Shown: piece after piece, positions 6,108 to 38,216 of the stretch
How the letters are laid out: every line of letters begins with the position of its first letter
Position numbering within the stretch: the stretch's first letter is position 1
Assembly (NCBI GenBank): GCA_019695295.1
Contig: JAIBAH010000009.1
Location: 1 to 64,000 of the forward strand
DNA length: 64,000 bases
Source: Bacteroidia bacterium
GTDB lineage: Bacteria > Bacteroidota > Bacteroidia > J057
Reading direction: 5' to 3'
Made by a program: the position numbers and the translations under genes
Notes under the pieces: model-generated
Databases searched by the model: none
Seen by the model: only the letters and a program-made list of their open reading frames with translations
What the model was told of the DNA's origin: nothing

Positions 6108-6551
6108 TCAGGTACTTATTTAAAAAACGTTCAAAATTATGGTTTTTTATTCATAATACAGAACGTATAATAAATGTTTTTGGTGGTTTAGCCCAAAAAC
6201 TACATTTATATTTTTCTGAAAACGGGAAAATACTGTTTTGGGAAAGAGGAAAAAGAAAATCCGGAGAGGAAGGGCGAAAGAGAGGAGCGAAAAACAAAAA
6301 ACCCTTCTCCTTGAAAAAGAAAGGCTTTTTGCTAACCATTAACACAGAATATTCAGGGAAATAACCCGGTAAGGCTATAAAAAGTTTGAATATTTTTGTA
6401 AATCTTTTTGATTCTGTGGCAATTTTTGTGGAAAGCGGAGTCTTGTGTTTTATTTTTCTCTATAAAGCAGAGGTTAAACCTCTGCTTTATAGAGAAAATC
6501 CACAAAAATTGTCAGATAACCCTCTGTTTTTTAAAATATACGAACCTTAAG
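6108..6551. other. 444-bp intergenic region holding a nested palindrome
   Basis: This gap lies between the second protease gene and the LVIVD lipoprotein gene. It contains a probable -7 element for the protease (minus strand TAATTTTG, 6139-6132) and a nested inverted repeat at 6412-6516. A 64-codon open frame on the minus strand (6151-6345) is Phe/Lys-rich and looks fortuitous. Nothing else was recognised. Confidence 0.6.
6412..6516. repeat. Nested inverted repeat, REP/MITE-like
   Basis: The core is a perfect 20-bp inverted repeat (6454-6473 with 6479-6498) around a 5-nt loop. A second perfect 13-bp inverted repeat (6420-6432 with 6499-6511) flanks it. Neither strand has a T-run after the core, so it is not a standard intrinsic terminator, although it lies 54 bp past the LVIVD gene stop. 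The two nested arms and their size suit a small non-autonomous palindromic element or a strong RNA 3'-end structure. Confidence 0.65.
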
Positions 6552-32358: not shown

Positions 32359-32535
32359 GAAAGAATACCGCTTCCGGGATTAAAGCAAGGCAAAATCTTT
32401 TCCTTATTGGGGTTTATCCGGGATATAAAGTAAAATGATTCTCCCTTTTTGCTTTGATTTTTAATTTTTAAGGAACTAATAGTCAGTTATTTGGTGTTTT
32501 TTCAAAAAAAAGTCGCAAATTTTTTTTGAAAAAAC

Positions 32536-36708: not shown

Positions 36709-37881
36709 TTAAGGATTAGAAAAAATATCCGTTAAATTTTTCCAGGAAAGGAGTTTTCCATCGGAAGTATCAAAATTTTGAGTGCCTCCATAAATTACAT
36801 ATTTTTTATCGGGTAGAAAGCCTAATATTGGGGATAAATGATGAATGGTTTTAAAATAATCTTTGGAAAAAGTTTCCCCTGATTTGATTTCAATTGGAAT
36901 GAGATTGCCCTCATTTTCCCACAAGAGGTCTATTTCCTTGTCGTTGCTATCTCTCCAAAAATAAAATTGAGGCACTCGTCCTTGATGAATTTCATGCTTG
37001 TGTAGTTCTGTAATCACATAATTTTCAAATAGTTCGCCACGCATATAGTGAAAAGGCACTTGCGCTTCATTGGTAATGCCCAACAAAGAACACAGTACGC
37101 CTGTGTCCCAAAAATACAATTTTGGCATCTTGACAATTCTTTTATTAAAGTTACGAAAATAAGGTTGCAAAGGATACAAAATATAGCTTGTTTCCAAAAT
37201 AGAAAGCCAGGATTTCGCCGTATTCACGCTAATCCCTGCGTCATTTGCAAGAGATTGCAGGTTCAGTAATTGCCCTACTCGCCCCGCACAGAGTTTGAGA
37301 AAACGGGTAAAATCATTCAAGTTCCCAACGTTTTTGATCTGGCGCACATCTCTTTCTATATAGGTCTGAATATAAGACGGATAAAAATCTGTGGGTGCAA
37401 TTTCCTGCGCATATAAACGAGGATAACCCCCTTTGAAAACAGGAGTATCAAAGGTATTAAAGTTTTGATTACCAGCGATTAATTCACTTTGGCTAAACGG
37501 TAGCAATTTCAAAATAGCCGTTCTCCCTGCAAGCGATTGCCCTATTTTTTCCAACAAAGAAAAATTCTGAGAACCAGACAAAATATATTTCAACCCGCTA
37601 TCGTTGTCGCTCAGTGTTTGCAAATAAGAAAACAAAGACGGCGCACGTTGCACCTCATCAAAAATTGCCCCATTAGGGTAATTTCGCAGAAAACCACGCG
37701 GATCCTCCAAAGCAAAACTCCGAAGATCAATATCCTCCAAAGAAACATAAGGCAACTTCTCCGCAAATAGATATTTGAGTAAAGTCGTCTTGCCCGACTG
37801 CCTCGGCCCCGTAAGCGTTAAGATAGGATATTGCACGAAAAGTGCCTGTATTTTATCGGAAATCGTACGCTGTATGTACAT
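36709..37881 (-). CDS. DUF4143-type AAA ATPase
   Basis: A 390-residue protein of the widespread ATP-binding family with a C-terminal DUF4143 domain. Walker A is GPRQSGKT (residues 25-32) and Walker B is AIFDEVQRA (about 72-80). The SGSQNFSL sensor segment is near 110. The C-terminal part (ENYVITELHKHE, then FYFWRDSNDKEIDLLWE and IPIEIKSG) looks like a restriction-endonuclease-type fold with the pattern D-x-E-x-K. The function of these proteins is not settled; they are common in accessory DNA. Two observations suggest transfer: I see no CCGG in the whole gene, although neighbouring genes have several each, and palindromes flank it on both sides. Its promoter overlaps a 41-bp palindrome. Confidence 0.88.
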   Translation of the reverse strand: MYIQRTISDKIQALFVQYPILTLTGPRQSGKTTLLKYLFAEKLPYVSLEDIDLRSFALEDPRGFLRNYPNGAIFDEVQRAPSLFSYLQTLSDNDSGLKYILSGSQNFSLLEKIGQSLAGRTAILKLLPFSQSELIAGNQNFNTFDTPVFKGGYPRLYAQEIAPTDFYPSYIQTYIERDVRQIKNVGNLNDFTRFLKLCAGRVGQLLNLQSLANDAGISVNTAKSWLSILETSYILYPLQPYFRNFNKRIVKMPKLYFWDTGVLCSLLGITNEAQVPFHYMRGELFENYVITELHKHEIHQGRVPQFYFWRDSNDKEIDLLWENEGNLIPIEIKSGETFSKDYFKTIHHLSPILGFLPDKKYVIYGGTQNFDTSDGKLLSWKNLTDIFSNP

Positions 37882-37882
37882 G

Positions 37883-37923
37883 TTTTATGTAATTTTGCAG
37901 TGAGAATGCAAAATTACATAAAA
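37883..37923. promoter_or_regulatory. Large palindrome over the DUF4143 promoter and leader
   Basis: A perfect 17-bp inverted repeat (37883-37899 with 37907-37923) around a 7-nt centre. The right arm carries the minus-strand -7 element TAATTTTG (37916-37909), and the expected transcript start falls inside the palindrome. The start codon is only 2 bp from its left edge. It is either an operator for self-control or a hairpin covering the ribosome entry site. Confidence 0.65.
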
Positions 37924-37940
37924 AGTAGGTTTTTTTCAAA
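37909..37940 (-). promoter_or_regulatory. Promoter of the DUF4143 ATPase gene
   Basis: Minus-strand TTTG (37940-37937), a spacer of exactly 20 bp, and TAATTTTG (37916-37909). The left arm of the palindrome contains the same -7 element on the plus strand, giving a symmetrical arrangement. Confidence 0.65.
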
Positions 37941-38102: not shown

Positions 38103-38132
38103 AAACACTTACATAAAACTATGTAAGTGTTT
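38103..38132 (-). terminator. Terminator of tRNA-Asn
   Basis: Perfect 12-bp stem AAACACTTACAT/ATGTAAGTGTTT with a 6-nt loop. On the minus strand it ends in a T-run. It lies 11 bp past the tRNA. Confidence 0.85.
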
Positions 38133-38142
38133 GAACTTTTTG

Positions 38143-38216
38143 CTCCCTGGGCTGGACTTGAACCAGCGACCCTCTGATTAACAGTCAGATGCTCTAACCG
38201 ACTGAGCTACCAAGGA
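38143..38216 (-). tRNA. tRNA-Asn (anticodon GUU)
   Basis: A 74-nt cloverleaf on the minus strand. The acceptor stem is TCCTTGG paired with CCAGGGA (one G-T pair), discriminator G. The D arm is GCTC/GAGC, the anticodon loop is CTGTTAA (anticodon GUU) and the T arm contains GGTTCAAGTCC. The 3' CCA is not encoded. It has its own promoter and terminator. Confidence 0.95.

Follow-up and report, generated by a model that had tools for sequence, protein, structure and literature searches.

The 41-bp palindrome next to the AAA_14/DUF4143 gene probably (roughly 0.8 by our estimate) serves as an operator through which a single-gene, defence-like module regulates itself, with the winged helix of the module's own protein as the binder. 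No binding or expression data are available for this reading. Self-repression through an operator was the first of two options given in the initial annotation, and it is supported by palindromes at homologous genes and by co-variation between the palindrome and the protein's recognition helix and wing. The analyzed window was a stretch of 64,000 nucleotides from a Bacteroidia bacterium (contig JAIBAH010000009.1), and its features are listed in Table 1.

The palindrome, the predicted promoter and the encoded protein

The palindrome had been described as a perfect 17-bp inverted repeat with a 7-nt centre and a motif shared by both arms in opposite directions. Both points were borne out. The arms at 37883-37899 (TTTTATGTAATTTTGCA) and 37907-37923 (TGCAAAATTACATAAAA) are 17 bp each and 100% complementary, and TAATTTTG is present in both of them in opposite orientation. 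The inner half-site motif TGC lies at 37907-37909 with its mirror at 37897-37899, and a single base separates the palindrome from the ATG of the gene (37881-37879, minus strand). Perfect inverted repeats with arms of at least 13 bp and a spacer of up to 15 nt occurred only 2 times in total over 20 dinucleotide shuffles of the full 64-kb window. Perfect repeats of such length are rare by chance. The 35-bp palindrome core had no other occurrence in the 4.9-Mb genome with up to 3 mismatches allowed, and a search of the genome for additional operator sites found none. The palindrome was rejected as a terminator for the gene strand, where the T run is absent; the terminator-like call was on the opposite strand only.

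Two other inverted repeats were observed in the window. A perfect 22-bp repeat with a 1-nt centre (6454-6498) lies between two minus-strand genes and is nested in an outer repeat (caatttttgtgga / tccacaaaaattg). An A/T-rich 16-bp repeat (32496-32535) lies directly 5' of a motif that resembles a promoter (tacctttgcac) and of a sequence that resembles a tRNA.

The Bacteroidota promoter consensus was used to read the -33 and -7 elements. On the gene strand, TTTG (37940-37937), a 20-bp distance and TAATTTTG (37916-37909) match a promoter of this type. From this reading, the transcript start is inferred near 37902-37904. The gene-near arm would then fall in a leader of about 20 nt, and the gene-distal arm would hold the -7 box. 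The earlier claim that the palindrome spans the -7 element and the leader agrees with the predicted promoter.

Table 1. Features of the palindrome locus in the window.
Feature	Position	Strand	Basis or remark
AAA_14 + DUF4143 protein, 390 aa, PADLOC PDC-S01	36709..37881	-	domain and PADLOC profiles
PD-(D/E)XK-like nuclease core, residues 317-332	36886..36933	-	invariant Asp317, Glu330, Lys332; motif assignment inferred
Winged helix-turn-helix, residues 187-256	37114..37323	-	AlphaFold2 model
Residue 248 (Arg) codon, wing loop	37138..37140	-	strongest co-varying column; AlphaFold2 model
Recognition helix, residues 218-230 (SVNTAKSWLSILE)	37192..37230	-	AlphaFold2 model and co-variation of residue 220
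Asn220 codon	37222-37224	-	co-varies with inner half-site bases
Walker A region, residues 24-32 (GPRQSGKTT)	37786..37812	-	invariant residues in alignment A1
Palindromic operator (putative)	37883..37923	.	unique in genome; homologs carry a palindrome at the equivalent place
-7 element TAATTTTG of predicted promoter, in gene-distal arm	37909..37916	-	box scored at -35, TTG at the -33 position
-33 element TTTG (CAAA on plus strand) of predicted promoter	37937..37940	-	sequence reading; Bacteroidota consensus
Terminator-like hairpin after tRNA-Asn	38103-38132	-	13-bp, TATGTAA in stem; between tRNA and DUF4143 promoter
tRNA-Asn, upstream of DUF4143 gene	38142..38216	-	same strand

The AAA_14 and DUF4143 domain scores were over the curated cut-offs (99.1 bits vs 27 and 173.3 vs 28.1), and the PADLOC PDC-S01 profile matched with E 5.6e-97. 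This is the only DUF4143 gene in the genome. The Walker A/B and PD-(D/E)XK-like residues are intact, and G24, G29, K30, T31, D74, E75, D317, E330 and K332 are invariant in alignment A1. In a 2026 survey, PDC-S01, an ATPase fused to a PD-(D/E)XK domain, was described as the fourth most common defence across prokaryotes, and most PDC candidates still await validation (PMC12988326). Membership of PDC-S01 places the gene in a phage-defence candidate family that is very common yet still lacks validation, and its anti-phage activity is inferred.

The AlphaFold2 model (pLDDT 85.5, pTM 0.88, nine sequences) placed the ATPase domain first, then a winged helix, then a C-terminal domain with the invariant Asp317, Glu330 and Lys332. 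The winged helix consists of helices 187-199, 207-214 and 218-230, strands 234-237 and 253-256, and a wing loop at 238-252. The closest solved structures for the ATPase/winged-helix part were the archaeal ATPases 2qen and 2fna; the C-terminal nuclease domain was scarcely probed by the VIA alignment. For the NBD and winged-helix arrangement of STAND/NLR-type ATPases, VIA listed NLR chains with Z 12-13.5, which is structural similarity only. To our knowledge, NLR-type winged helices have not been described as operator readers. Foldseek matches to Can2/Cdn1-type CRISPR ancillary nucleases, with long and loose alignments, and a weak PADLOC listing of CARF-PDDEXK models were not taken as membership.

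Homologous palindromes and their co-variation with the protein

The homolog set consisted of 102 distinct proteins with 24-56% identity, drawn from approximately 400 genomes of Bacteroidota plus related contigs. A strong palindrome, defined as an inverted-repeat score of at least 12 within 86 bases around the start, was present at 51 of the 102 homologs, compared to 5 of 218 neighbouring control genes and 0 of 510 shuffles. At least one of the five positive control genes apparently carried the downstream copy of a DUF4143 palindrome. In an additional set, 40 of 69 homologs had a palindrome at the equivalent place. Absence of the palindrome from all homologous genes was part of the refuting outcome named in the initial annotation, and this was not the case in either set. 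By the strict score, about 40-50% of the homologs lacked a palindrome, and several of these resemble degenerate dyads.

The palindrome arms were up to 32 bp long among the homologs. Their letters vary and the symmetry is retained. The common half-site layout has an inner triplet 4-6 bp from the dyad, an A/T-rich middle and a TTTGT-like outer part. Plasmid-borne homologs of Treponema, Moraxella, Roseovarius and Granulicella also carried a palindrome, with arms matched 19/19 in Treponema and 21/21 in Moraxella. The plasmid homologs of Agrobacterium, Sinorhizobium, Neorhizobium and Novosphingobium had none by score, and no relative was found in the viral contigs searched. In the same-genus genome, the contig ends inside the tRNA, so the site could not be compared in close relatives.

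In several homologs, including L044, L065 and L089, an in-frame stop interrupts or closes the aligned region, which may mark either a broken gene or an early end. The Wolbachia plasmid pWALBA2 (L205) encodes, beside an Rpn-family nuclease gene, a homolog that shares 52% identity with the protein of the window; its presence there suggests transfer between phyla.

Half-site similarity was compared to protein similarity for 68 homologs with correction for overall protein distance (partial Mantel). Across the whole protein, a scan with a 15-residue window peaked at residues 211-225, the recognition helix, with a modest window-wise permutation P of 0.036. Among 333 variable columns, residue 248 in the wing ranked first (family-wise P 0.006) and residue 220 in the recognition helix second (P 0.028). 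The domain borders were fixed by structure prediction after the scan, and the winged helix had already been expected from the sequence. A coarse three-segment comparison was run in the same script as the scan.

The two residues were associated with particular half-site letters. TCC accompanied Lys220 in 36 of 38 homologs, compared to 3 of the 30 lacking Lys220. Asn220 occurred with TGC in 9/11, against 0/57 for the others, and Thr248 with an outer TTCC in 8/10, against 1/58. Pro220 was paired with T-rich triplets. The triplets and the outer motif were chosen from the same list, so the Fisher P values are descriptive only. Furthermore, these counts are sequences and not evolutionary events, and the homologs are related by descent. 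On a tree lacking the winged helix, the residue class switched about 18 times. The operator class differed in 7 of 8 independent pairs that differed in residue class, compared to 11.6% of same-class pairs. For at least one homolog (L047), the automatic procedure put the dyad centre in the wrong place; this case was retained and counts against the code.

The additional set comprised 69 homologs that were not used in pattern discovery, including phage and plasmid records. Many of these are close relatives of each other, and both sets were drawn from a single phylum by overlapping sampling. Asn220 occurred with TGC in 6/6, Asp218-x-Lys220 with TCC in 5/5, and the outer TTCC was found with Thr248 in 2/2 and with Arg248 in 0/37. 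For Lys220 alone, TCC was present in 5/10; the remaining five, all Ser218-x-Lys220, read CGC. Therefore, the code is not confined to residue 220, and residue 218 matters too. This refinement was made on the additional set and had not been predicted. In the window, where the protein carries Asn220 and Arg248, the TGC of the palindrome agrees with the code. This co-variation lends good support to recognition of the palindrome by the DUF4143 protein, as evidence from sequences and not from binding.

Proposed autoregulation and the alternative explanations

In the proposed mechanism, the winged helix sits between the ATPase and the PD-(D/E)XK-like nuclease domain in one chain, and two winged helices of a symmetric protein assembly would occupy the two half-sites. 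Residue 220, in the N-terminal part of each recognition helix, would contact the inner triplet at a distance of about 4-6 bp from the dyad, and residue 248 in the wing would read the A/T-rich outer part. The bound protein would sit over the -7 box itself or, as in many homologs, immediately 5' of it. RNA polymerase would thereby be excluded and a potentially harmful nuclease kept low. Displacement or titration of the protein, for example when the ATPase engages an invader signal, would raise expression. Physical binding, stoichiometry, repression instead of activation, the inducing signal and the defence role are all inferred without direct data. The sign of regulation rests solely on the overlap of the palindrome with the predicted promoter.

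The locus has three of the properties expected of an autoregulatory operator: a two-fold symmetric site overlaps the predicted promoter of the gene, the site is conserved at homologs, and its specificity tracks the DNA-binding domain of the product. A Thermus DUF4143 gene was up 6.6-fold with a plasmid in an Argonaute-positive strain (PMC4406477), which is evidence of variable expression in one family member and nothing more.

The second option of the initial annotation was a leader hairpin hiding the ribosome site. Such a hairpin, whether it masks the start codon or acts as a translational attenuator, is given hardly any credence. The palindrome adjoins the start codon, and transcription from further upstream would give a strong RNA fold (-20.2 kcal/mol, z -7.1). 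However, such a hairpin needs both arms in the transcript, and the predicted promoter leaves the distal arm upstream of the start; an RNA beginning near 37903 has no stable fold. A TAnnTTTG box was found upstream in 38 of 64 palindrome-bearing homologs, compared to 7% of shuffles, and in 20 of these 38 the -7 box is 3' of the palindrome, commonly at -12. A box at this place puts the start at or near the ATG and leaves the palindrome untranscribed in these 20 homologs, as far as predicted promoters with unmapped 5' ends allow. Moreover, a hairpin has no place for co-variation with protein residues. The same co-variation bears on whether the site serves a separate host regulator instead of the DUF4143 protein. 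Proximity by itself does not identify the binder, and separate repressors are reported for other defence systems, namely BrxR (PMC9122589), RptR (PMC12255303) and CapK/CapS (PMC13373217). However, the site is unique in the genome, its letters vary by homolog and track the recognition helix and wing of the adjoining gene, and the palindrome accompanies the gene in other phyla, so a separate regulator is very unlikely.

Of the 79 loci whose downstream sequence was long enough, 13 had a second copy of the upstream palindrome, in most cases 0-26 nt past the stop codon, and none was found in the genome of the window. These loci include L134 (7174-7214), L135, L136, L137, L138 and L139. At L199 (808-5815; G406 contig C312), compared to L168 of G409, about 5 kb of unrelated sequence starts at the outer edge of the downstream palindrome. 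We have no explanation for the second copy, and one guess is that the two operators are joined by looping. The palindromes may instead bound a one-gene mobile element, moved by or with the ATPase/nuclease, with promoter control being secondary. The downstream recurrence speaks for this, as do the patchy distribution of the gene and its several copies per genome. In one genus, the palindrome-gene-palindrome unit occupies several sites, and the palindromes mark the limits of homology between them (e.g., L134 vs L168 5944-7213). However, this boundary is explicable by conserved function alone. The window and most loci have the upstream copy only, so the two ends expected of an element are not present in the window's genome, and solo palindromes were absent from the search results for these genomes. 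In one genome (G411), gene and upstream palindrome persist at the same site but the downstream copy is missing. The search for empty sites in one genus gave no clean empty site or target duplication, with divergence, rearrangements and contig ends obscuring the comparison. We consider a mobile unit unlikely.

An extended form of the autoregulation reading is speculative and rather improbable. Here the palindrome would go beyond repression and be the specific target that licenses the ATPase/nuclease. As long as the protein occupies its operator, together with the downstream copy at loci that have one, the enzyme would stay inactive and counted. Displacement upon invasion would both raise expression and free the nuclease, so that a single protein would be sensor, repressor and effector, and the evolving helix/wing code would insulate paralogs.

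Comparison with known systems

PDC-S01 is reported to be one of the most common defence candidates of bacteria and archaea, and it acts by unknown means. With the autoregulation reading, it gains a probable DNA target that is largely predictable from sequence, and the reading residues are named. A 41-bp probe makes binding, regulation and induction directly testable, and the palindrome provides an annotation mark for family members. The window gene matches PDC-S01 by profile and in its fusion of an ATPase to a PD-(D/E)XK-type nuclease. The literature searched gave no account of PDC-S01 having an operator, recognising DNA through a winged helix or regulating itself.

The ATPase and winged-helix core aligns with the archaeal Walker-type ATPases Sso1545 (2fna) and PABY2304 (2qen), with VIA Z values of 15.7 and 14.8, respectively, and an rmsd of 3.1-3.2 over about 245 residues, although sequence identity is only 17-18%. 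BrxR/CapW-type WYL proteins, RptR and CapK/CapS are similar in that a promoter-bound protein controls a defence locus. However, they are described as dedicated regulators beside effectors, whereas the DUF4143 candidate effector itself seems to read DNA. Autoregulated toxin-antitoxin operons and ParA-type partition operons are similar in that their promoters are bound by one of their own products. In contrast, the window locus has no partner gene, and the reader, the ATPase and the nuclease are combined in one chain.
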